Of a stretch of 64,000 nucleotides of DNA, positions 3,998 to 41,888 are shown piece after piece. A program made the translations under genes and the position numbers. Where the stretch lies: contig NZ_PPCX01000011.1 in NCBI RefSeq assembly GCF_002959775.1, positions 1 to 64,000 on the forward strand, written 5' to 3'. The first letter of the stretch is position 1; every line of letters begins with the position of its first letter. This stretch comes from Veillonella rogosae JCM 15642 (lineage in GTDB: Bacteria > Bacillota > Negativicutes > Veillonellales > Veillonellaceae). Below the pieces are notes generated by a model. The model did not search any database and was not told the DNA's origin. It was given only the letters and a program-made list of their open reading frames with translations.

Positions 3998-6900
3998 CTA
4001 GTTAATCACAAATTTTGCCGTACTGCCATCATCACCACGTGTGACCTCTAAGTGGGCAGGTATACGAGTTTTCAATTCTGGTACATGAGAAATCATACCG
4101 ATGAGGCGTCCAGAAGATTGTAATTGTACCAAAGTTTCCATGGCAAGTTCTAATGTATCTGGATCTAAAGTACCAAAGCCTTCGTCGATGAACATCGTAT
4201 CCATATGAATACCACCGGCATAACTTTGAATGACATCGGCTAGGCCCAAGGCAAGGGCCATTGACGCCAAAAATGTTTCACCACCAGACAATGTATTCGC
4301 CGGTCTTGATTGACCTGTGAAAGCATCCATAACTGCCAAATCAAGGCCTTGTTTACCACGACCACCACCAGTATAATCAGATCGCTCCAAGGAATAACGA
4401 CTACGACTCATCTTTTGAAGTCGTAAATTGGCGGCATACACAACTTCATCTAAAATAGCACCTAGCACATATCGTTCAAAGGTTACATTTTTAAACCCTT
4501 GTTCTCCACCATTAGCGAGGTCATTTAATCGGCTCAAGAACTCTACTTCTTCACGAGATTCGCCCATAGCTACGTCAAGCTCTTCTAATGATGCTAATGT
4601 AGTTTCAATATGTTTCGTCTCTTTTTCCCATGCCGCTAGATTGCCTACAAGCGCATCTCTACGTTCCACCGCCGCATCATACACCTCATCACTTACTGTA
4701 GCACTAGGCTCAACTATAGATTTCGCTACCTTTAAGGCCGCATCATATACAGCTTGAGCTTTATTGAAATCCTCGTCTAATGCGTGTAGTTCAGTTCTAA
4801 AGGTATCTAAGACCTTATAATCACCTAATGTCTCTACGAAATCAACTTCACCTAAAGAAATAGATTGCAATGATTTTATATATTCCTTATAGATTACATC
4901 AAGGTTATTAGTTTCTTCTTCCACTTGTGCAGATAAGGTTTCTAGGCGCCCCCGTTGAGCATTGAGCTGTTTTCGAGCAGCCTCTAAATTCCTTTCACAA
5001 AGTTCCACTTGCTCATCGTATGCGTTAATGTCAGTCTCTAACGATTCGATCTGTTTACGCCATACATCAAGATCTGTAGTTGGCAAGATTTTAGATAAGG
5101 CATCAATTTTAGCTTGTACAGAACTAAGCTGAATCTCTAAATCATGCAGGCTTTCAAGTAATTCCTTATGAGCCATCTCTAATTTCGCTAATGCTTCTTT
5201 GACCCCACTTAGTTTATCCTCATTTGTAGCTATAGTTTTGCTTAACTGTTCAGTATCGCTACGCAAAGCTGTGAGCTGCTCCATTTGGGATAGCAAGTCT
5301 TGTTGAATAGAATCAAATGTGTCTTCCGAAAAACCATCAATCAATGATGTAAGTTTAGTAACTTGTTCTTTAACTTCCTCATCTAACTCATGTAAACGAA
5401 TAACTAACGTTTTTTTCTGACCAATTTCGCTAGCCTGCTTTTGTATCGCCTCATCCCGCACCGCACGAGCCACTTCTATTTCCTCTTTTGTAGGATACAA
5501 CTCAGGCTTGGATGCTAACTGTGGATGCTCGGTAGAACCACATACAGGGCAAGGCTCATTATCTACTACCAAATGGACAAGTTCAAAAGCGCGTCCCTCT
5601 GCCATCAAATGTTCTAAACGCTCAAGCTGGACCTTCGAGCTCTTTACAGATTCATCTATAGCCGCTAAAGACCTATTCTTAGCATCAATATCGTGTTGGA
5701 TCTTCTGTTTCTGTCCTAATAATTCAGAATATCGTTGTAACTGACTCAACTGTTCTTGAATACGAGGAATACCCTCTAAGTCTTTACTATTAGCTTGGAA
5801 CTGCTTTCTCGCTTCAACTAACGCAACCTCTAAATCAGCTACTAACTTATGCTGTGCCTGCAACTCAGTGTCGCTTTTCTCCCGGTCCTGTGTTTCTAAG
5901 TTACTCTTTAATGTGGTCAATTCTTTATTTAGCAGTGCCAACTCATCAAATTTCTCTGACTGTTGTTGGAGTTGCGCCAACGTAGTCCTATTAGCTTGTA
6001 TAGTTTCAGCTTGAGATGCTAACACTTCATGGGCCTCTGTACATTTAGACTCCTGTTGAGATGCAATTTCCACACCTTTTTTCGTATCTGAAAGTGCCGT
6101 TTCCAATGTTTTTAATGCACTCTGTTTATCACTAAACTGTTTATATAGCTCATAGGTTGGAGTTAAAGAAGTGAGGAACTGAACCTTTTCACGTAAACTA
6201 GAACGCTCCCCTTCTCTTGCTTTTACCAAGTCTAATTTAGAAGCAGCCTCTGTAAGAGACTGTTGCGCTTGATTATATACGGCCCACTCCTTACGCAATG
6301 CATTGAACTGCTCCACCTCGGCAACAGCCTCATCTCGCTTCACAACAAGTCCATCACGATAGGGCTCTCGGTTAGCCAATAATTCACGTACATGTTGGGC
6401 CGTCAGCACTATAGTATCCTCATCATGAGGAATAGACTGTATCAACGCGGCTTGTTTTGTCAGATTTGCCTCAATGCCTGCTTTTGCGTCATCATAAGCA
6501 GCTTTGAGAGCCTCTTGTAATTTTCGGTATAGCTCCGTTCTAAAGAGAGTGTGTAGTAACTCCTCACGCTCACTAGTAGAGGCAACTAATAATTTTCTAA
6601 ACTCCCCTTGCGGCAAAAGTACTACTTGTAAAAACTGATCTTTACGAAAGCCTATAATGCGTTGAACTGTATCACGAATGGCTGCGGCAGAGGTAGCGAT
6701 AACTTTCCACTCACCATCTTTCATTTCGTATACCGTGGCACTAGCATTCTGTTCACGCATACCAGTACCGCGTTTTTTAGCGACCAATTGTTTTGGCAAT
6801 CTTTCAACACGATACTGAGCCTCACCGATAGCAAAGGAAAAGTCAACACGGGTCATACGTTCAGGTTCTGCAAAATCACTGCGGATAGCATCTGTTTTTC

Positions 6901-7081
6901 GCACTTCCCCACTAGGTTCACCATATAAGGCATACACCATAGCATCTAGGATAGATGTTTTCCCTGCCCCCGTAGGACCAGAGATAAGAAACATGGAGTG
7001 ATTTTGGAGCGCACTAAAGTCCAAGGTAACCGAATCGCGGTACGGACCAAAGGCTTCTATAGTTAAAGATATAGGCTTCAT
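3998..7081 (-). CDS. sbcC: Exonuclease SbcC (Rad50-like SMC ATPase)
   Basis: SbcC is the ATPase subunit of the SbcCD nuclease, which cuts hairpins and processes blocked DNA ends. The 1027-residue protein shows Walker A GPTGAGKTSILDAM (about residues 35-48), long coiled coils, the zinc-hook CPVCGSTEHP near residue 515, the ABC signature LSGGETFLASMALALG, and Walker B with FIDEGFGTLD near the end. Its ATG follows the sbcD stop directly, with GGAGG inside sbcD, so the two are coupled. No truncation is seen. Confidence 0.95.
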   Translation of the reverse strand: MKPISLTIEAFGPYRDSVTLDFSALQNHSMFLISGPTGAGKTSILDAMVYALYGEPSGEVRKTDAIRSDFAEPERMTRVDFSFAIGEAQYRVERLPKQLVAKKRGTGMREQNASATVYEMKDGEWKVIATSAAAIRDTVQRIIGFRKDQFLQVVLLPQGEFRKLLVASTSEREELLHTLFRTELYRKLQEALKAAYDDAKAGIEANLTKQAALIQSIPHDEDTIVLTAQHVRELLANREPYRDGLVVKRDEAVAEVEQFNALRKEWAVYNQAQQSLTEAASKLDLVKAREGERSSLREKVQFLTSLTPTYELYKQFSDKQSALKTLETALSDTKKGVEIASQQESKCTEAHEVLASQAETIQANRTTLAQLQQQSEKFDELALLNKELTTLKSNLETQDREKSDTELQAQHKLVADLEVALVEARKQFQANSKDLEGIPRIQEQLSQLQRYSELLGQKQKIQHDIDAKNRSLAAIDESVKSSKVQLERLEHLMAEGRAFELVHLVVDNEPCPVCGSTEHPQLASKPELYPTKEEIEVARAVRDEAIQKQASEIGQKKTLVIRLHELDEEVKEQVTKLTSLIDGFSEDTFDSIQQDLLSQMEQLTALRSDTEQLSKTIATNEDKLSGVKEALAKLEMAHKELLESLHDLEIQLSSVQAKIDALSKILPTTDLDVWRKQIESLETDINAYDEQVELCERNLEAARKQLNAQRGRLETLSAQVEEETNNLDVIYKEYIKSLQSISLGEVDFVETLGDYKVLDTFRTELHALDEDFNKAQAVYDAALKVAKSIVEPSATVSDEVYDAAVERRDALVGNLAAWEKETKHIETTLASLEELDVAMGESREEVEFLSRLNDLANGGEQGFKNVTFERYVLGAILDEVVYAANLRLQKMSRSRYSLERSDYTGGGRGKQGLDLAVMDAFTGQSRPANTLSGGETFLASMALALGLADVIQSYAGGIHMDTMFIDEGFGTLDPDTLELAMETLVQLQSSGRLIGMISHVPELKTRIPAHLEVTRGDDGSTAKFVIN

Positions 7082-8452
7082 TTAGTCCTCCTTTAGAATT
7101 CGATCCCATACAGAGTTAATGTATTGTTGCTCACGCTCTGTTAATGGTTCTTTCCACACGGTTTCAGCAAATTGATTAAATAATTCGCGCTCGTTTAACT
7201 CTTTAAAAACGGCTTCATCCATATCTGCCATAGGAGTTGCCACGCGACCTACTAAATCAATAGTCATGCATCGATGATACACTTGGCGTAGCTTAGCCAT
7301 TCCATCCATAATAGGCATCGTATCAAGCAATCGAGCCTGTACATAATCGTCTTTATGCTTAGCCTGTAATTTCTTATTGTTTAGCAAGTCTTCAAAATAG
7401 CCTTCCAATATTACAACGTCGCGCTTCGCCTCTACAGGAATGGTACTAATATCTACGTTACCTTTTATATCCATATCTATGATGGTAAAAGACTTTTTCT
7501 GCGTATGCTCATCAAAGGAATATTTTAAAGGCGATCCGCTATAGCGAATATAGTCTGCCCCCATTCGCTGAGGCCCATGCAAATGGCCAAGGGCTGTATA
7601 GTGAAAGTCTTTAAAGACTTGAGGATGTACCTGTTCACTACCACCGATTGACAGGGTACGTTCAGAGCCACCTACTTCGCCACCCATTACAAAGGCATGA
7701 CTAATGGCAATGCTGCGCATCCCCTTTGGCACTTGATTGCGTAAATGGTTGCTCCAAGCCTGATACATTTGGTCGTAATTATGTAGATTGAGACCATTTT
7801 CATTATGGGCGGTCAAATCTTGTGTTACACCCTTAGATGTTTCTATAGCAGCATTTTTTTCATCTACCATATCAACACAAGCAAATAAAGAGTCCTCCAC
7901 AACATCTACAGATGCTTTTTTAGATTTAGAACCCTTAGTTTTTGTTTTAGTTTTCGCCGCTAGTATTTCTACATTTTCTATATTTTGAATATTCTCTAAG
8001 GAGATATTAGCTGAGCCAAAGCCTAATGCATCCCCAATGCGACGAGGCTCGCTAAAAGGCATAGGGCAAATGGCCACTTTGCCATCGGTGCCTTCAAATT
8101 CAAAGGGTTGTAATGCATGATGAGGGGATCCCCAAATATGAATTCCTGATTGGCTCAACATAGAGCGGCCCACTTCAAGGCGTTCAGCCCCATCATGATT
8201 ACCGCTTACCACGAAGAGGGGCACCTTATAATCCATAGCGAGACGAGTAATAATAGAGTCCCACAACTCAACAGCTTCAATTGGTGGCACCGCTCTATCA
8301 AAAATATCCCCTGCGAGCAATATGCCATCAATTTTTTCATCTTTCAAAATAGTAAAGAACTGATTCTCCAACACATGAGCTTGGTCATCTGTTAAATACT
8401 GACCATAAAAAATACGTCCTAAATGCCAATCGGCAGTATGTAAAAAACGCAT
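7082..8452 (-). CDS. sbcD: Exonuclease SbcD (Mre11-like nuclease) with an internal insertion
   Basis: SbcD is the metal-dependent nuclease partner of SbcC. The calcineurin-type motifs are intact: ADWHLGR (7-13), GDIFDRA (48-54), SGNHDGAE (83-90) and the later GHLHGPQ. At 456 residues it is longer than many SbcD proteins. Part of the extra length is a low-complexity, Lys/Thr/Ser-rich and acidic segment at about residues 155-222, placed between the third and fourth motif blocks. Its RBS is AAAGGGGG. It forms a two-gene operon with sbcC. Confidence 0.93.
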   Translation of the reverse strand: MRFLHTADWHLGRIFYGQYLTDDQAHVLENQFFTILKDEKIDGILLAGDIFDRAVPPIEAVELWDSIITRLAMDYKVPLFVVSGNHDGAERLEVGRSMLSQSGIHIWGSPHHALQPFEFEGTDGKVAICPMPFSEPRRIGDALGFGSANISLENIQNIENVEILAAKTKTKTKGSKSKKASVDVVEDSLFACVDMVDEKNAAIETSKGVTQDLTAHNENGLNLHNYDQMYQAWSNHLRNQVPKGMRSIAISHAFVMGGEVGGSERTLSIGGSEQVHPQVFKDFHYTALGHLHGPQRMGADYIRYSGSPLKYSFDEHTQKKSFTIIDMDIKGNVDISTIPVEAKRDVVILEGYFEDLLNNKKLQAKHKDDYVQARLLDTMPIMDGMAKLRQVYHRCMTIDLVGRVATPMADMDEAVFKELNERELFNQFAETVWKEPLTEREQQYINSVWDRILKED

Positions 8453-33289: not shown

Positions 33290-34603
33290 TTAGTCCTCTT
33301 TGTGTTCCATAGATTTTGGAAGTGTTAAAATCAATAGACCTGCAAGGAACATGCATGCACCCATTACGTAATAGCCTATTGCAAAGCTACCCGTATGACC
33401 ATTGATAAAACCAAGCATATAAGGACCTACCCAGCCACCTACGTTACCGGAAGAATTAATAAGCCCCATTGCACCTGCTGCGGCTGCACCAGATAAGAAC
33501 GTAGTCGGCATGGTCCACCATACACCCATACCACCGTAAACACCAACAGCCGTTAAACAGATGAATAACAAGCTAATTTCTGGAGATGGACTGTGTGGTG
33601 TAGCAATAAAACCAAAGGTGCCAATAAACAAGGTAGTAGCAATATGCCAACGTTTTTCATTGCGCTTCTCTGAGGAGTGACCACAGTATACTTGCACAAG
33701 TAATGCAGCCGTCATTGGGATAGCAATAGACCAAGCTACCACACTTGGTGGCCAGCCAGATAAACTTTTAAGTACTTGAGGCATCCAGAAGCTAAAGCCC
33801 CAGAAGCCAATAATCCATAAGAAGTAAATTAAAGATAAAAGTAATACTTTAGGATCTCTTAAGGCTTGCCAAGTTGTATATTTCTTAACCTCTTGTTTTT
33901 TAGCTTCCTCTTTAGCTAATTCTTCTTTCATGTAAGCTTTCTCTGCATCACTTACCCAAGAAGCTTGTTCTGGTTTTTCTTTCATCCAGAATGCAAAAAT
34001 GAAAGCAAAGATTACAGCAGGTAATGCCTCTACAATGAAGAGTGTGCGCCACCCATGTAAGCCAAAGAATGTTGTATCAAGTAATATACCAGCTAACGGA
34101 CCACCAATGATATTAGAGAATAACAAAGACGTAAGCATCAAGGAAATGGCCTTTGCTCGCTCCTTTGGTAAGAACCAGTTAGGAATCAACAAGGAATATA
34201 CTACGGGATACAATGACGCTTCACATAAACCTAGTAGGAATCGATATAAGTAAAACTCCCATACAGTAGTCATGGTCGTCATTAGGACACACACTATGCC
34301 CCAACTAAACATAATGCGTGCAATCCAAAGCATAGCATTGCAACGTGCAGCGATCAAAGATGCAGGCACCTCAAAGAGAACATAGCCAATAAAGAAAATA
34401 CCTGCGCCCATGCCAAAGACCTCTGGTGTCAGCCAAGGCAAGTTTTCTTTCATCGTTAAGCCAGCATAGGCAATATTTACACGGTCCAAAAAGGCAATAA
34501 TAGAAACAATAAATAATGGCAGGACTACATGGAGCATACGCCGCGTCGTAAAGTCCTTAAAATCGATGGCCCCACTTTGAGGCTCTGGTGTAGATGAGTT
34601 CAT
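33290..34603 (-). CDS. MFS transporter, anion:cation symporter (ACS) type
   Basis: This 437-residue inner-membrane carrier has about 12 hydrophobic helices. DRVNIAYAGLTMKENL near the start and the central charged loop (EKPEQASWVSDAEKAYMKEEL) are characteristic of the ACS family, which moves organic anions such as hexuronates, tartrate or phthalate. The substrate is unknown. AAAGG precedes the ATG. It lies upstream of the cupin terminator and has no enzyme partner alongside. Confidence 0.88.
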   Translation of the reverse strand: MNSSTPEPQSGAIDFKDFTTRRMLHVVLPLFIVSIIAFLDRVNIAYAGLTMKENLPWLTPEVFGMGAGIFFIGYVLFEVPASLIAARCNAMLWIARIMFSWGIVCVLMTTMTTVWEFYLYRFLLGLCEASLYPVVYSLLIPNWFLPKERAKAISLMLTSLLFSNIIGGPLAGILLDTTFFGLHGWRTLFIVEALPAVIFAFIFAFWMKEKPEQASWVSDAEKAYMKEELAKEEAKKQEVKKYTTWQALRDPKVLLLSLIYFLWIIGFWGFSFWMPQVLKSLSGWPPSVVAWSIAIPMTAALLVQVYCGHSSEKRNEKRWHIATTLFIGTFGFIATPHSPSPEISLLFICLTAVGVYGGMGVWWTMPTTFLSGAAAAGAMGLINSSGNVGGWVGPYMLGFINGHTGSFAIGYYVMGACMFLAGLLILTLPKSMEHKED

Positions 34604-34779
34604 ATAATTCCTTTCTACTACTTAAGATATTACATACCTTATTATCTTAAGAAAACAAAAGTCCTCTGTCAATGGAATTATATAGAATATAGAAATAACA
34701 AATAGGAATAGCGAAATCAAAATGATAGCATCTGAAAATAGAAAAGGTATATTCACAAAGAGTGACTGTATAAAATAAA

Positions 34780-34841
34780 AAAGCACTTTATAGTATAATG
34801 CTGTCTCTATTACAAGATAACAAAATACTATAAAGTGCTTT
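34780..34841. terminator. Terminator of the DUF4261-cupin pair
   Basis: A 17-bp perfect inverted repeat (AAAGCACTTTATAGTAT / ATACTATAAAGTGCTTT) with a 28-nt loop lies 5 nt after the cupin stop. A run of A precedes it on the plus strand, giving T on the minus strand. Confidence 0.88.
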
Positions 34842-34845
34842 CATA

Positions 34846-35202
34846 TTAATTTGTACTAACAGGATCATAATCAGCAGGTACAGGAGCAACGATACTTACA
34901 AAGATAACATCTTCTGTTCCAGTATTTTTTGCGCCATGACATTCACCCTTTTTAGATACTATAACTTGCCCCTTTGTAAAAGGCACCTCCGTATCAGGCG
35001 TTGGATAAAATACCCCCTTGCCTTGCAATATAACCCATATATCATCAGAGTTATGATGGTAATGCTTTGGTAAGGTTTGACCAGGTTTAATAACCCATAC
35101 TGAACCACCTGTGGAATCAGTTTGATAAAATGGAGTCCTAACAGCTTTCTCTAGACTTTCAACTTTCACAAGTTCCATGTCAAAAACACGTTGATCATTC
35201 AT
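34846..35202 (-). CDS. Cupin-domain protein
   Basis: This 118-residue single-domain cupin has motif 1 around KHYHHNSDDIWVILQGKG, with two histidines and a downstream glutamate-like position, and motif 2 around GECHGAKNTG. These supply likely metal ligands. The function is unknown; similar proteins bind sugars or act as isomerases. The ATG at 35202 has AAAGGTG upstream, which I prefer to upstream ATG/TTG codons without a site. It lies 28 bp after the DUF4261-like gene and probably shares its transcript. Confidence 0.8.
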   Translation of the reverse strand: MNDQRVFDMELVKVESLEKAVRTPFYQTDSTGGSVWVIKPGQTLPKHYHHNSDDIWVILQGKGVFYPTPDTEVPFTKGQVIVSKKGECHGAKNTGTEDVIFVSIVAPVPADYDPVSTN

Positions 35203-35230
35203 AATGCTCACACCTTTCATCAATTACCAA

Positions 35231-36106
35231 CTAGCGAGTGCCCGATGCATATTCGCCCAAATTAATATCTATAACAGTACGAACAGGTTGAATCAAGGAA
35301 TCCTCATACTGAACCTTCCATTTAATATCTGGATTCAGATCTCCATTTTCTAAGCCTGCAATCGTTTGCCCGTCATCAATAGGATTATCGTGCTCAAAAA
35401 TATAGTACAACACACTATACGCATGATTTACAATATCATCGGGATTCATACCATGAAAATGGTACTGCAAATCAGGGTAGAATAAGGTGCTCATACCTAA
35501 CGTATCAACCATCATATCATCTGTGCCTTGAATGCTAAAGTAACGCACATTTACGGCATAATAAATAAAACGAGTCACATTTTTATCTGGATGATTTTCA
35601 ATGGTTTCACGACTTAAAAACTTACGAGATGGACCAAAGACAACAGCCTTGCAAGATGGATATAACTCCAACAGAGCATCTACATATTTCACGAGCATAT
35701 CGGCACGTTCTTTAGGCTCTAAACCTGAAGCTAACATATCGGTAGCAAATACTCTATATCGGCACTCATCTAGCAACTCATCTACATTTGGACAATCCCA
35801 CACCTGACTACGCTCAAAATCATCTAGTACAGGTTTATCGATTTTCTCACAATTCGTCACCATTAAGGTCGGTGAAATATCGGCATCATTGTCCTCATAA
35901 TGAACCTTATAATTTTGAGGTGCCAAACCAGCAGATTCCGCTCCATAACTAAAGCAATCAACAGGGCCTAAATGCTTTGTAAATACATCAACCATTGCAT
36001 TACGAGCAGGCATATCGCACTGCTCCGGCATTAATAACTCAAGGAAAAACAAACCGCCAGGACGAACAGAGTTATCTGTTAGATCTTGTTTAAATACTTG
36101 GCTCAT
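35231..36106 (-). CDS. DUF4261-like cytosolic protein
   Basis: This protein is 291 residues from the ATG at 36106 (AGGAGA 5 nt upstream); a longer in-frame start at 36241 would add an implausible N-terminus. The C-terminal half (VDTLGMSTLFYPDLQYHF, then YYIFEHDNPIDDGQTI) matches my memory of DUF4261. No biochemical role is known to me. The rest is acidic, with no signal peptide. It forms a pair with the cupin gene. Confidence 0.65.
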   Translation of the reverse strand: MSQVFKQDLTDNSVRPGGLFFLELLMPEQCDMPARNAMVDVFTKHLGPVDCFSYGAESAGLAPQNYKVHYEDNDADISPTLMVTNCEKIDKPVLDDFERSQVWDCPNVDELLDECRYRVFATDMLASGLEPKERADMLVKYVDALLELYPSCKAVVFGPSRKFLSRETIENHPDKNVTRFIYYAVNVRYFSIQGTDDMMVDTLGMSTLFYPDLQYHFHGMNPDDIVNHAYSVLYYIFEHDNPIDDGQTIAGLENGDLNPDIKWKVQYEDSLIQPVRTVIDINLGEYASGTR

Positions 36107-36234
36107 AGTCTCTCCTAACATTAAAATATAAATTGAAACAAAGCTTCCCCCCTTATAGTATATCAAAGGTTTATAAGTATAACAATCATTTAGATATATA
36201 ACTACAAATATTTTCGAGTATATAATATAACGCA

Positions 36235-36275
36235 AAAACACTCCCTACAAATCCGAAGATTATAGGGAGTGTTTT
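36235..36275 (-). terminator. Terminator of the citrate lyase operon
   Basis: A 13-bp perfect stem (AAAACACTCCCTA / TAGGGAGTGTTTT) with a 15-nt loop lies 9 nt after the citF stop. Confidence 0.92.
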
Positions 36276-36283
36276 GATTTTAA

Positions 36284-37831
36284 TTATAGAGGTTTACGAA
36301 CCACGTCGATGATAGAGCCATCGCGGTATTCTACGATTGCCACGATGTCTTCGTCTTTGTCAGACACAGGAATGTCTTGTGGTTTACCAACTAAGTCAAA
36401 TGCTAATTGTTGTAATTCTTCAATTGTGAAGATAGGCAAGTTGCTATCTTTGAAGCGTTCAATCAAATCAGTGCGAGTTGGGTTGATTGCGATACCATAT
36501 TCAGTAACAAGTACGTCAATGGAGGAGCCTGGTGTAATTACAGTAGCTACTTTATCACGGATCATTGGCAAGCGGCCACGGATCAATGGGCAAGTAATAA
36601 CTGTGCATTTAGCACCTGCTGCTGTATCGGAGTGACCGCCAGAAGCGCCCATCAATACGCCATTGGAGTCAGTCATTACGTTTACGTTGAAATCAAGGTC
36701 GATTTCAGTAGCACCAAGGAATACTACGTCTAAGTAGTTAGTAGTGCAGTCTGTCCAAGGGTTAGCGTACATGGAAGCAGACATTTCGATATGTGCAGAG
36801 TTTTTATCCAAAGATGCTGCTGCAGTAGTATCGAATGTTTGAGTATCGTAAATAGCGCGAATCAAACCTTCTTCAAGCATGCCAGTCAAGATACCAGTAG
36901 CACCACCGATAGCAAAGCCAGCAACTTCACCGCGTTTGCGAAGTTTTTCACCGATGAATTTCGCCACAGTCAATGGAGCACCACCAGCGCCCAATTGGAA
37001 TACGAAACCGTCTTTAATGATGCCAGCTTGGTCAAGGAATTCACCAGCTAATTCAGCAATTTTGATTTGGATAGGGTTTTTAGTGAAACCTACCGCACCA
37101 GAAGCTATACCTTCTGGATCACCAATGCTTTCAACCTCAACAACATAATCTACGTCAGTTTGAGGAATTGCATAGTTGTGTACATAGTCAACTAAGTTAT
37201 CAGTGATGATAACAGTTGTATCTGCATAGTGGGAGTCAACTTTAGCATAGCCAAGTGCACCACATGCGGATTTGCCTGTACGACCAGTAGCATTACCACG
37301 TGGGTCAGCTGTAGGAGCGCCCATGAAAGCCACGTCGATATGAACTTCGCCACATTCGATAGCACGAGCACGGCCACCGTGGGAACGAATGATTACAGGG
37401 CGTTTCAATACGCCTGGGTTTTGTGTTAAGAATTTACCAAGACGATCGCGCAAGCCAGATGTTTCGATAGCTGTTACAGTACCATCTTGAATCATTTCTA
37501 CTAAGAACTCATGGCATGGGGATAAGGAGGAAGACGCAATTGTAATGTCTTTAATACCTTTCGCTTGAACGCGTTCCATAACCATTTTCATTACATAGTC
37601 GCCATTGCGCAAGTGATGGTGGAAAGACAATGTCATACCATCTTTTACGCCAGCTTTTTCGATTGCTTCGTCGATAGAAGCAAGAACTTTATTAGTACCC
37701 ACACGGCTCATGTGTACAGTTTTACCTGCGCGATGAGCTTTTGGTTCGATTGCGAATTCACCTTGGTATACTTCGCGACCTTCTAGTGCTGGGATATTTG
37801 TTGGGATATCGCGACCTACTTTATTTAACAT
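36284..37831 (-). CDS. citF: Citrate lyase alpha subunit (citrate CoA/ACP transferase)
   Basis: CitF swaps the acetyl group on the acyl carrier for citrate, giving citryl-ACP. The 515-residue protein is full length and collinear with known CitF: GRDIPTNIP at the start, LSFHHHLRNGDYVM, ASSSLSPCHEFLVE, SHGGRARAIECGEVHIDVAF, QLGAGGAPLTVAKFIG and ITPGSSIDVLVTEYGIAINP. It overlaps citE by 11 bp, with AAGGAG inside citE. It is the last gene of the operon. Confidence 0.95.
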   Translation of the reverse strand: MLNKVGRDIPTNIPALEGREVYQGEFAIEPKAHRAGKTVHMSRVGTNKVLASIDEAIEKAGVKDGMTLSFHHHLRNGDYVMKMVMERVQAKGIKDITIASSSLSPCHEFLVEMIQDGTVTAIETSGLRDRLGKFLTQNPGVLKRPVIIRSHGGRARAIECGEVHIDVAFMGAPTADPRGNATGRTGKSACGALGYAKVDSHYADTTVIITDNLVDYVHNYAIPQTDVDYVVEVESIGDPEGIASGAVGFTKNPIQIKIAELAGEFLDQAGIIKDGFVFQLGAGGAPLTVAKFIGEKLRKRGEVAGFAIGGATGILTGMLEEGLIRAIYDTQTFDTTAAASLDKNSAHIEMSASMYANPWTDCTTNYLDVVFLGATEIDLDFNVNVMTDSNGVLMGASGGHSDTAAGAKCTVITCPLIRGRLPMIRDKVATVITPGSSIDVLVTEYGIAINPTRTDLIERFKDSNLPIFTIEELQQLAFDLVGKPQDIPVSDKDEDIVAIVEYRDGSIIDVVRKPL

Positions 37832-38786
37832 CGTATTCTGCTCCTTCCTCTAATTCAACTTTAATACCTGCTGCACGTGCTTTATCAACAACGCGTTGAG
37901 CACGAACTACGATAGGACCATCGATCATTTTGCCATCTACAGCGATTACGCCTTTATTGTTGCGCAATGCATCTGCATAGCTGTTCAATACCTTAACGGA
38001 ATGAGCGATTTCTTTTTCGTCAGGAGTGAATACTTCGTGGATAATTTTAATTTGGCTTGGGTGGATACAAGATTTGCCATCGTACCCCAAAGCTTTAATG
38101 AATTCAACTTCTTCGTGGAAACCTTGAGGATCTTTCACGTCGGAGAATACAGTATCAATTACGCGGATACCTGCTTCGCGTGCTGCATGAAGGATTGTTT
38201 GACGAGCGAACAACAATTCAACAGCTGGTTTGCTTTTACCAGTGCGAAGGTCAGCACGATAGTCTTCAGCGCCAAGAGCGATAGCAACTACGCGAGGGCC
38301 ATGGCAGATTTCACGAACATTGTACAAGCCACGAACGGATTCGATAGCTACGATAATGTTGATGGTACCTTCTTCCCAACCGTTAGCTTTTTCTACTTCT
38401 TCAATTTTCTTCGCTACGATTTCAACTTCGGAAACGTCCTCAGTTTTAGGTAAACGAATCAAATCAGGTTTGGCAGGAACGATTACATCAAGATCATCAT
38501 AACCATAAGGAGTTTGTGTAGGATGGTTGATACGAACAACTGTTTCACCGCGGAACTTACGGGATTTCAAAGCTTCTGCAGTTAAAAGACGAGCAGTGTC
38601 TTTTTCTGTTACAGCAACAGAATCTTCGATGTCGATCATGATGGAGTCAGCACCGTGAATGTCAGCACTGTTAATCATTTTAGGTGTATTACCAGGTACG
38701 AACATCATGGAACGAGACAAGCGTTTTTTAGCAGCCTCTGTTAATGGATTTGTTTTAACTTCTGGGAATGTTTTATCGTTAGCCAT
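37821..38786 (-). CDS. citE: Citrate lyase beta subunit (citryl-ACP lyase)
   Basis: CitE splits citryl-thioester into oxaloacetate and acetyl-thioester. The 321-residue protein has the HpcH/HpaI-type TIM-barrel motifs: SMMFVPGNTPKMI, DIEDSVAVTEKD with acidic metal ligands, the glutamate in IVAIESVRGL, ALGAEDYRADL and DTVFSDVKDPQGF. It overlaps citD by one base (TAATG) and citF by 11, so the three are coupled. Relatives of CitE act on free CoA thioesters, which matters given the unusual CitD here. Confidence 0.95.
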   Translation of the reverse strand: MANDKTFPEVKTNPLTEAAKKRLSRSMMFVPGNTPKMINSADIHGADSIMIDIEDSVAVTEKDTARLLTAEALKSRKFRGETVVRINHPTQTPYGYDDLDVIVPAKPDLIRLPKTEDVSEVEIVAKKIEEVEKANGWEEGTINIIVAIESVRGLYNVREICHGPRVVAIALGAEDYRADLRTGKSKPAVELLFARQTILHAAREAGIRVIDTVFSDVKDPQGFHEEVEFIKALGYDGKSCIHPSQIKIIHEVFTPDEKEIAHSVKVLNSYADALRNNKGVIAVDGKMIDGPIVVRAQRVVDKARAAGIKVELEEGAEYDVK

Positions 38787-39055
38787 TATGCTTTGCTCCC
38801 CCTTTCCAATGCGCCTAATACGCGAGCTTTAATTGTGTAATCCCAAGCATTTTTATCTTGTACGATTACTTTCACGCCATCAAAACCAGCTTCTTTTACT
38901 GTGTTCAAAACAACGGATTTAATTTGGTCGCCGTATTGACGGATAACTTTGGATGTTAATTCGATTTCGATACCGCTAGCAATCGGTTCAACCGTTACTA
39001 ATGCATCATTTTTTTCGTCGAAGCCAGCTTGTGCAGCTTTTACTAATTGTGCCAT
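38786..39055 (-). CDS. citD: Citrate lyase gamma subunit (acyl carrier) lacking the usual cofactor serine
   Basis: CitD normally carries phosphoribosyl-dephospho-CoA on a serine (Ser14 in E. coli, in GTLESGD). The 89-residue protein aligns with the family from AAQAG onward (VTVEP, ELTSKVIRQYGDQI, VIVQDKNAWDYTIKARVLGAL). The segment matching GTLESGD reads GFDEKND, with lysine K15 in the serine position. I re-read the codons on the minus strand and see no frameshift. GGAAAGGA precedes the ATG. The consequence is discussed in the findings. Confidence 0.88.
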   Translation of the reverse strand: MAQLVKAAQAGFDEKNDALVTVEPIASGIEIELTSKVIRQYGDQIKSVVLNTVKEAGFDGVKVIVQDKNAWDYTIKARVLGALERGSKA

Positions 39056-39178: not shown

Positions 39179-40582
39179 TTACATGAAACCTGTGATTTTC
39201 CACCAAGGAATACCAATTACGTAGTTCAATACTAAACATACTACTGCAATCATTAAACCAACTGTCCACCAGTCTTTTACATTGTTATAACCAGCGGAGA
39301 AGATGATTGGACCAGGAGCAGCACCGTAGTGAGTTACGGAACCACCATAGGAGTTTGTACCAATCAGGATGAATGCAAGTAATGTAGGATCGATGCCTGC
39401 GTTCATACCAACGATCAAGAATACTGGAAGCATCGCGGAGATGTATGCAGTACCAGATGCGAAGAAGTAACGAACAGCAACGGAAATAATGGAGATAAGG
39501 ATAAGCATCATGAATGGATCTAAACCGAAGTTCATGTGAGCTTCTAAATATTTAGCCAACCATTCGAAGAATTTACCTTTAGACAATGCGGAGGATAAGC
39601 CCAGGATACCACCGAACCAAATCAATGTGTTCCAAGCAGCTTTAGTTTTGAGCAAGTCATCCCAAGTAATAATACCACATATAAATGTAGCAATCATCGC
39701 TACGATAGCAACTGCTGTAGCGTCAATTTTGATATCAAATGTTGGAAGAATCCAACCTGTGATCGCAAGAAGCGCGATAGCAATAAGACCTTTTTCAGAC
39801 GCTTTCATAGGTCCCAATTCAGCTAAGCCATCTTCAGCAATTTTCTTGTTGTCGATTTCTTTTACAGTAGGGCGTTCATACATGTAGCCAATAATAGGAA
39901 CAAGCATTAACATGATAAAGCCAGGTACGAACATTGCTAATGCCCATTGAGCCCAGTTCAAAGATACTCCTGTCAATTTAGTAATAAAGTCAAGAGCTAA
40001 ATAGTTTGGCGCCATCGCAGTTGCAAAGAAGAAGGATGTTACCTTTGTAGCAAAGTAACCATTCTGTAAGAGGTAAGCGCCTGCTTTTTTTGCAGATTCG
40101 CCAGGATAAGAACCAACTGCTTCAGCGATGGACAAGTTAATTGGATATACGATACCAGCCGCACGAGCCGTGTTGGATGGTGTGGCAGGAGATAAGATCA
40201 TATCAAGGAATGCCGTAACATAACCAAGACGAAGTGTAGTACTACCAAAAGCGCGAACCAAGTAGTACGCAATGCGGTGACCTAGGCCAGTTTTACCAAA
40301 TGCAACGGATAAACCGAAAGCTGCGAAGATCAACCATAATGCTGTATTGCTGTAACCAGTCAATACTTCTTTTGTATTGCTCAATAAAATAGAAGATGTA
40401 GCAACACCTAATAATACTGTAATAGGAACTGGGAATGGTTTTAATACCAAGCCCACGATAGTAGCTAAATAAATACCGAATAATTTCCATACTTGCGGTT
40501 TGAGGCCTTCTGGTGTGCCACCGAACCACATAAACGCGACGATGGCAGCCATAATGCCAATACGCCATAATTTGTCTTTCAT
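39179..40582 (-). CDS. DASS-family dicarboxylate/citrate carrier (CitT/2-oxoglutarate-malate translocator type)
   Basis: This 467-residue inner-membrane carrier has about 12-14 hydrophobic segments. The motif SPATPSNTARAAGIVYPI (starting near residue 131) is the hallmark of the CitT/TtdT/SODiT branch, which exchanges citrate, tartrate, 2-oxoglutarate or other C4-C6 acids. Next to citDEF, citrate/succinate exchange is the natural guess, but the substrate is inferred. AAAGG lies 11 nt before the ATG. A leader hairpin and a candidate promoter lie upstream. Confidence 0.88.
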   Translation of the reverse strand: MKDKLWRIGIMAAIVAFMWFGGTPEGLKPQVWKLFGIYLATIVGLVLKPFPVPITVLLGVATSSILLSNTKEVLTGYSNTALWLIFAAFGLSVAFGKTGLGHRIAYYLVRAFGSTTLRLGYVTAFLDMILSPATPSNTARAAGIVYPINLSIAEAVGSYPGESAKKAGAYLLQNGYFATKVTSFFFATAMAPNYLALDFITKLTGVSLNWAQWALAMFVPGFIMLMLVPIIGYMYERPTVKEIDNKKIAEDGLAELGPMKASEKGLIAIALLAITGWILPTFDIKIDATAVAIVAMIATFICGIITWDDLLKTKAAWNTLIWFGGILGLSSALSKGKFFEWLAKYLEAHMNFGLDPFMMLILISIISVAVRYFFASGTAYISAMLPVFLIVGMNAGIDPTLLAFILIGTNSYGGSVTHYGAAPGPIIFSAGYNNVKDWWTVGLMIAVVCLVLNYVIGIPWWKITGFM

Positions 40583-40976: not shown

Positions 40977-41888
40977 TTATGCTTTATATTCTCTAAAAAT
41001 ACTATTATCTACTACGGTATGTTCTTTGTAGTAATTGCGAACATACTCAATAAATGTCTTTACTACTACTAGATTTTCCGCATCCTTTGTGTACACCATA
41101 TTCGTATCACGTGTGATGCATTCACCGTCTTTATTGCGCAACGGACTTACATAAATATCTTTATCCTTGCAAGATCCAAGGCCCATATAGGTCAAAATCG
41201 ACCAGCCAAGGCCTGCACGAACAAAGTGACGACAGGTACTCATGGAGTTTACATCCATTGCAACACTCGGTGGCTCTTCAAAATGTTCAGCACACCATGT
41301 TTCGATGATGTTGGCTACCGATACATCTGTTTGGTATTTAATGAATGGCACCTTCTCTAATGACTCAGGTGGTACTAACTCTTTATATACCAAACAATAC
41401 GGCTCAGCCAGTAACAATTCAGATTTTCCAGATACATCATAGCCACCACGAGCAAAGGCAACCATACAATCGCCTGTATTGAACATTTTTACTACTTGAT
41501 GGCTGAAAGCAGTCTTTACTTGAATATGAACATCTGGGTATTGTTCGCGGAAGGCTTTCAATAAGGCAGGTAGCTCATAGTCTGCAAAGTTGATAGATGA
41601 CGCAATTTTTAAGGTCCCTTGAATCTTACCAGACGCAGAATTCATAGCATTCTCCAACGCCTCTTGATCTTGCATCATTCTTTTACAGTAATCATAGAAA
41701 ATTTCGCCTTGTGCCGTGAGGGCAATCCCTTCAGCAGTCCGCAACAATAGAGAATGGCCCAAGGCTTTTTCCATATGACGCAACCGATAGCTCAACGCCG
41801 GTTGCGATAAAAATAATTTTTCTGCAGCCCTTGTAATATTGCCTTCATCCACAACGGTCACAAAGGTTTGCCATTCTCTATCGTCCAT
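40977..41888 (-). CDS. LysR-family transcriptional regulator
   Basis: This 303-residue regulator has a winged helix at the start (EWQTFVTVVDEGNITRAAEKLFLSQPALSYRLRHMEKALG) and an effector domain from about residue 88 (IQGTLKIASSINFADYEL). It is the nearest regulator upstream of the carrier-citDEF operon, a possible target. It also follows the Bax-inhibitor-1 gene by only 12 bp, with which it probably shares a transcript. AAGGAG precedes the ATG. Confidence 0.92.
   Translation of the reverse strand: MDDREWQTFVTVVDEGNITRAAEKLFLSQPALSYRLRHMEKALGHSLLLRTAEGIALTAQGEIFYDYCKRMMQDQEALENAMNSASGKIQGTLKIASSINFADYELPALLKAFREQYPDVHIQVKTAFSHQVVKMFNTGDCMVAFARGGYDVSGKSELLLAEPYCLVYKELVPPESLEKVPFIKYQTDVSVANIIETWCAEHFEEPPSVAMDVNSMSTCRHFVRAGLGWSILTYMGLGSCKDKDIYVSPLRNKDGECITRDTNMVYTKDAENLVVVKTFIEYVRNYYKEHTVVDNSIFREYKA

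Follow-up and report, generated by a model that had tools for sequence, protein, structure and literature searches.

A citrate lyase-like gene row of Veillonella rogosae whose CitD has lysine at the place of the prosthetic-group serine

Citrate lyase is the textbook example of an enzyme dependent on a CoA-derived prosthetic group of its own and on three accessory proteins dedicated to it, and in the known enzyme acetyl and citryl groups are shuttled on the arm carried by CitD. The stretch of DNA analyzed here (Veillonella rogosae JCM 15642, contig NZ_PPCX01000011.1, positions 1–64,000; 64,000 nucleotides in all, hereafter the window) contains a compact citD–citE–citF row on the minus strand, in which the CitD-like product has lysine in place of the serine that bears the phosphoribosyl-dephospho-CoA prosthetic group. 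The genes follow the order DASS symporter, CitD-like protein, CitE, CitF, DUF4261 protein, cupin, and MFS carrier. The start codon of CitE overlaps the stop codon of CitD, and the end of CitE overlaps CitF by 11 bases. The features, with lengths in amino acids (aa), are:

38786..39055, minus strand: CitD-like subunit without the cofactor serine, 89 aa (open reading frame, TIGR01608, PF06857, and alignments)
39011..39013, minus strand: codon 15 (AAA), encoding the Lys that corresponds to the prosthetic-group serine, Ser14, in Escherichia coli CitD (alignment)
38837..38845, minus strand: W71-D72-Y73 of AWDY, standing for the usual A-L-D-C in this clade (alignment)
37821..38786, minus strand: CitE lyase subunit, 321 aa (TIGR01588, 343.1 bits, below the cut-off of 443.4)
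36284..37831, minus strand: CitF acyl/CoA transferase subunit, 515 aa (TIGR01584, 653.6 bits, cut-off 501.45)
39179..40582, minus strand: DASS-family anion symporter, possibly for substrate uptake (profile matches)
40977..41888, minus strand: LysR-family regulator preceding the gene row (best NCBIfam model CcpC, 205.6 bits, below the cut-off of 400)
35231..36241, minus strand: DUF4261 protein downstream of CitF, seen at only part of the Veillonella loci; uncertain member of the system (profile)
34846..35223, minus strand: small cupin; membership of the system uncertain (profile)
33290..34603, minus strand: MFS transporter; membership of the system uncertain (profile)

The genome (2.19 Mb, 99.96% complete) has a single PF06857 match. 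The nearest named loci are those of Veillonella, and CitD is 98–99% identical in V. parvula SKV38, V. denticariosi, and V. infantium.

The window CitD (beginning MAQLVKAAQAGFDEKNDALV...) scores above the curated cut-offs of TIGR01608 (73.8 bits; cut-off 63.5), NF009726 (77.7; 65), and PF06857 (82.3; 25.1). The reference CitD of E. coli K-12 (NC_000913; MKINQPAVAGTLESGD) carries the cofactor on Ser14 of GTLESGD. The corresponding loop of the window protein reads G11-F-D-E-K15-N-D17 (GFDEKND), and because G11, E14, and D17 align without gaps with the G, E, and D of GTLESGD, Lys15 corresponds to E. coli Ser14. The initial annotation, which had reported lysine in the place of the cofactor serine, is thus borne out in coordinates, strand, and codon. 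The alignments place no alternative serine at the attachment site; further serines occur later in the window CitD, and none of them aligns with this site. Across 45 aligned CitDs, G11 and D17 never vary and E14 is conserved at 90% or more, so the loop has been retained, with the nucleophile and some of its neighbors altered. Because the defining serine was tested for and is missing, the protein falls, on alignment, outside the carrier-protein family strictly defined and is classed here as a variant of citrate lyase.

In the AlphaFold2 model of CitD (predicted local distance difference test score [pLDDT] 94.0; predicted template modeling score 0.84), Lys15 lies in the loop between strands 8–10 and 18–24. 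The top Foldseek matches to this model are mostly elongation factor G chains with query template modeling (TM) scores of about 0.5–0.65, which were not used. A PDB sequence search with the window CitD returned nothing meaningful. The AWDY motif was considered as a mark of serine loss and rejected, since L104 (with citC beside it), L066, and L098 combine AWDY with serine.

The genes that would make and attach the cofactor were sought by profile searches. The window genome has no match for the transferase CitX (PF03802), which attaches the group, or for CitG (PF01874), which synthesizes its precursor. Its only match to the family of the ligase CitC, which acetylates the group (PF08218, 26.2 bits), was rejected, being CoaD (pantetheine-phosphate adenylyltransferase; TIGR01510, 189.9 bits), and because PF08218 also matches such CoaD-like proteins, CitC was judged in the window genome alone. 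CitX and CitG were compared more widely in two samples, each of which may miss some CitDs. The relatives sample comprises 150 genomes, 84 of them with PF06857, and at least one CitD was read from each of the 84. In the phylum sample, a model built from only three serine-less CitDs matched 30 of 398 genomes; of these, 28 were tested for CitX and CitG, and 27 of these lie outside the table of relatives. Malonate-decarboxylase carriers were recognized by motif and counted apart (L053, L054, L056–L058, L067, and L072; L216 in the phylum sample).

Among relatives whose lyase-type CitDs are all serine-less, CitX occurs in none of 30 and CitG in one of 30 (G109, a genome that encodes a carrier of the malonate-decarboxylase type as well). 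CitX is present in 41 of the 42 relatives with only serine CitDs, in all eight with both kinds, and in none of the four with only the malonate-decarboxylase type. In the phylum sample, the serine-less-only genomes have neither CitX (0/4) nor CitG (0/4), and CitX is found in 12 of 21 serine-only genomes, in the single genome with both kinds, and not in the one with the malonate type (by motif). Over both samples, CitX is thus present in 0/34 serine-less-only genomes, and in 49/50 (relatives) and 13/22 (phylum sample) of those with a serine CitD; 26 of the 34 belong to one family and the other eight to seven family codes, so that kinship inflates these counts, and the Fisher P ignores it. The rule that serine is present if and only if CitX is present was rejected: serine-less-only genomes are without CitX (34/34), and the converse fails in 10 genomes.

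A cross-check of 11 genomes with named loci, some of them already counted, located CitX in those of L098, L104, a Megasphaera metagenome-assembled genome (MAG), and V. seminalis, all four of which possess a serine CitD, and not in the other seven. Both kinds of CitD occur together with CitX in nine genomes (eight relatives and G204 of the phylum sample). As the serine-less copy persists in these CitX-bearing genomes, it behaves as a separate type. Two members of the window's family, G015 (L042; V. seminalis, identified by the identical place of CitX) and G018 (L045), have a complete canonical citCDEFXG locus alongside a serine-less fused one. The initial annotation had regarded a citrate lyase-like complex without bound cofactor as conceivable. 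This idea gains strength from the failure to find CitX, CitG, or CitC in a nearly complete genome and from the distribution of CitX, and the activity on free CoA thioesters proposed with it is still what we infer.

Every one of the 28 genomes sampled from the window's family has a GFDEK[NQ]D CitD with no serine at the site and no internal stop, and the site codon is AAA or AAG in all nine CitDs of the family that were compared. Conversion of a serine codon to lysine needs at least two base substitutions. Pairwise ratios of nonsynonymous to synonymous substitution rates (dN/dS) among the nine are 0.03–0.22 (31 of 36 pairs with computable dS, many of them saturated with dS > 1), and CitD is under purifying selection. 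Because of this selection and the 28/28 occurrence, lysine at the site is no error, and to judge from its sequences the CitDEF complex looks alive.

A pattern-based scan of 84,980 species in a genome collection yielded 34 loci. Most are of Veillonella, and the others belong to Pectinatus, Megasphaera, one Sporomusaceae MAG, and one Peptococcaceae MAG; both of these MAGs keep serine. A quick, midpoint-rooted CitE tree (93 rows) requires six changes between serine and non-serine, at least four of which are forced by well-supported branches. Lysine marks three separate lineages: the Veillonella–Pectinatus–Megasphaera clade (support 99; site motif GFxEKND/QD), which includes two serine and two threonine members; L050/L055/L064 (support 100; GxxxKxD); and L187/L189/L191 (support 99; GTxEKND). 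Serine is probably ancestral, as inferred from its spread, which includes the malonate-decarboxylase carriers, and the serine-less CitD is, on this tree, a lineage-wide type that is present in more than one lineage. The four serine-less-only genomes of the phylum sample have lysine (two), glycine (one), and alanine (one) at the site.

One Veillonella group (V. ratti, V. seminalis, V. intestinalis, and relatives) has CitD joined to the N-terminal end of CitE as a single 414-aa protein (loci L041 [6313–7557], L044, L046, L049, L051, and L052). A model of the fusion was not used (mean pLDDT 76.6; near 50 in the CitD half). The reverse order, CitE then CitD, is seen in a fusion at L221 (G360; 5324–6598) with glycine at the serine site. 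CitD-like genes at L069 (6890–7204) and L185 have proline there (GTLEPND); that of L069 lies 3′ of a gene of the citrate:cation symporter family and of a sensor/regulator pair (judged by eye), and no CitE or CitF was found within the stretch examined.

CitF lies above its TIGR01584 cut-off. In CitE, the Arg, Glu, Asp, and lid Asp (R178, E242, D268, and D382 in L041 numbering) are invariant in 23 rows including E. coli; they were matched by eye to catalytic residues described in passages of PMC3832036 and PMC6689899. At the Asn position of the CitE motif NPRQ, histidine occurs in 28 of 28 serine-less rows of the first set, and the 36 serine rows have Asn (33), His (2), or Ser (1). Histidine is also found at this position in five solved CitE-like relatives, among the matches listed.

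With no attachment serine and no accessory enzymes found, CitD very probably bears no covalent cofactor, and the complex probably acts on free CoA thioesters. On balance, the locus may well encode a working citrate lyase that uses free acetyl-CoA and citryl-CoA and keeps CitD as a scaffold. The covalently bound CoA-like prosthetic group would have been given up, leaving CitD as a folded, non-acylated structural subunit. CitF would act on free CoA (acetyl-CoA + citrate → citryl-CoA + acetate), and CitE would cleave free citryl-CoA to oxaloacetate and acetyl-CoA, so that acetyl-CoA of the cellular pool would turn over catalytically and the sum would be citrate → oxaloacetate + acetate. With acetyl and citryl groups on free CoA, CitC, CitX, and CitG would be dispensable. 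That free CoA can replace the arm is suggested by the synthesis of (S)-citryl-CoA with inactivated citrate lyase (mentioned in part of PMC6689899, citing Buckel et al., 1973) and by the action of other CitE-like enzymes on free acyl-CoA thioesters (described in part of PMC3832036). Lysine occupies the site in three separate lineages, each well supported. A bolder and rather improbable reading is that cofactor-free citrate lyases are recurrent and that Lys15 is functional, gripping the CoA phosphate at the former place of the phosphodiester, with CitD binding free CoA non-covalently and reversibly.

The substrate was considered from the carriers at 33 loci of the Veillonella-type clade, same-genome copies being excluded as far as seen. 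Carriers named for citrate (CitMHS or 2HCT) lie in the stretch of 15 of the 33 loci. In the window's family, CitMHS immediately follows CitF at four loci, three above the TIGR00784 cut-off and one just below it (248.3 versus 259.7), and genes of this citrate:proton symporter family also adjoin L095, L102, and L066. Megasphaera loci adjoin a 2HCT carrier (above the Pfam cut-off, below that of TIGR00783) together with phosphoenolpyruvate (PEP) carboxykinase or pyruvate carboxylase, and the third lysine lineage (L219) is near aconitase and NADP isocitrate dehydrogenase. Because of these carriers and neighbors, citrate is favored as substrate, and activity of the complex on citrate appears reasonably likely. 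In V. dispar, citrate lyase is listed among the genes that shift with growth phase, according to a passage of PMC10100942. The window DASS symporter (39179–40582) scores 1022 bits against itself and 571–651 bits against the DASS proteins that occupy this position at other Veillonella loci, which would fit a replacement of the transporter. The second serine-less lineage (L055:3660–9607, GTANKGD) lies near a family III CoA-transferase and, by eye, HMG-CoA lyase, neighbors that suggest a substrate other than citrate.

Several observations weigh against a cofactor-free citrate lyase. Within the Veillonella-type clade, L066 and L098 have serine and L068 and L070 have threonine at the site. The window CitE falls below the cut-off of TIGR01588, though this is its best NCBIfam model, and also below that of the free-CoA RipC/Ccl model NF038242 (180.3 versus 375). 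The motif HPxQ was rejected as a marker of free-CoA use: in the phylum sample, three serine-less rows have NPRQ and one has HP, and eight serine rows have HP, so that HPxQ in CitE would characterize a lineage at best. In 14 of the 33 loci, the window included, DASS is the only one of the three carrier kinds and is not specific for citrate, and CitMHS, 2HCT, and DASS are all missing at four (L033, where the stretch ends just past CitD, L059, L068, and L070); because of these loci, the substrate is uncertain. A serine CitD without CitX occurs in 9 of the 21 serine-only genomes of the phylum sample and in 1 of the 42 among relatives (G146, which has CitG and a locus stretch of only 1905 bases). 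Given these 10 genomes, absence of CitX alone is no mark of a serine-less enzyme, and an attachment system of another kind may exist.

These points bear unequally on the other explanations that can be offered. The complex might use free CoA thioesters without a covalent cofactor and have a substrate other than citrate, either citramalate or a similar 2- or 3-hydroxy acid. The subthreshold score of CitE for the citrate lyase beta subunit (343.1 versus 443.4 bits), the DASS carrier as the only one in the window, and the CoA-transferase near L055 agree with this, as does the annotation of citramalate lyases as citrate lyase (noted in a section of PMC4682846). The TIGR00784 genes directly 3′ of CitF in four family loci and adjoining L095, L102, and L066, the 2HCT carriers of Megasphaera with PEP carboxykinase or pyruvate carboxylase, and the aconitase and isocitrate dehydrogenase near L219 speak for citrate instead, and another hydroxyacid is unlikely. 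A carrier-protein enzyme in which CitD is still modified, on another residue or by another transferase or precursor synthase, might be supposed from the nine phylum-sample genomes with serine and no CitX match, which leave room for other routes, and from threonine at the site in two members; but the window CitD has no serine at the site, its genome has no CitX or CitG match, and serine-less copies are present also in genomes that do have CitX, all of which make this quite improbable.

Loss of the active serine together with three accessory genes resembles erosion at first sight, as though the operon lingered in a decaying or inactive state. Against this stand the open CitD frame in 28/28 family genomes with dN/dS of 0.03–0.22, the invariant catalytic residues of CitE, the overlapping gene junctions of the window, and retention of the CitD–CitE fusion in one Veillonella group, and decay is hardly credible. 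Hardly more plausible is a system that runs mainly in the synthetic direction, joining acetate and oxaloacetate to citrate for a cell that lacks Si-citrate synthase. The window genome has no match to PF00285 (Si-type citrate synthase; the Re-type was not searched for), a profile matched by 13 of 14 control genomes, but the carriers and the LysR gene at the locus suggest that an imported acid is used.

The preferred reading, a citrate lyase working on free CoA, can be set beside known systems. The window CitD resembles that of the E. coli cit operon (L002) in length, in a TIGR01608 score above the cut-off, in the G-x-x-E-x-x-D loop, and in the order citD–citE–citF, and differs in having lysine for the attachment serine and in a genome in which no citC, citX, or citG was found. 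The citramalate lyase of Clostridium tetanomorphum and relatives (PMC4682846) likewise has three homologous subunits, but its clusters include CitCXG according to a figure legend of that paper, none of which was found in the window genome. With the free-CoA CitE-like lyases (Ccl/RipC, malyl-CoA lyase, and Rv2498c) the system shares the CitE family, the catalytic residues, and the likely free-CoA-thioester substrate, whereas those enzymes function independently of CitD and CitF. The malonate decarboxylase carrier MdcC (5vit_C, rank 50 in the Foldseek search) belongs to the same Pfam family and its fold resembles the CitD model (TM 0.73/0.67), but MdcC-type rows keep serine (GV[TV]GSGD), unlike the window CitD. 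Profile matches at the window locus reveal no Mdc genes; the neighbors are CitE and CitF.

No prior description of a serine-less CitD or of a citrate lyase without prosthetic group was found among the titles and abstract openings listed from the open PMC literature, within which the serine-less citrate lyase appears to be a new variant. A native cofactor-free form, if true, would show that the prosthetic arm is dispensable, would hint at the way in which citrate may be used by Veillonella, Pectinatus, and Megasphaera, and would mean that "citrate lyase acyl carrier protein," the label assigned automatically, needs correction. V. seminalis has both kinds of CitD and permits a direct comparison, and the Ser/Lys site offers a two-way mutational test (Ser to Lys and Lys to Ser) of the contribution of the covalent arm.

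Other observations concern serine CitDs and the flanks of the row. In G449, one of the 12 serine-only genomes of the phylum sample counted with CitX, that gene (C1:2367379–2367857) is broken by two stop codons; CitG there is free of stops and CitD keeps serine. In five genomes of one family (L224:6857–9450 and the loci of G495, G533, G282, and G312), CitD keeps serine, neither CitX nor CitG is matched, and CitE, short at about 240 aa, apparently lacks the C-terminal lid; in L224, glycine seems, by eye, to replace the metal-binding Asp. The DUF4261, cupin, and MFS genes 3′ of CitF (33290–36241) recur at L034, L037, and L039, and in L035, L041, L043, and L047 of the window's family this place is taken by a CitMHS citrate:proton symporter family gene.
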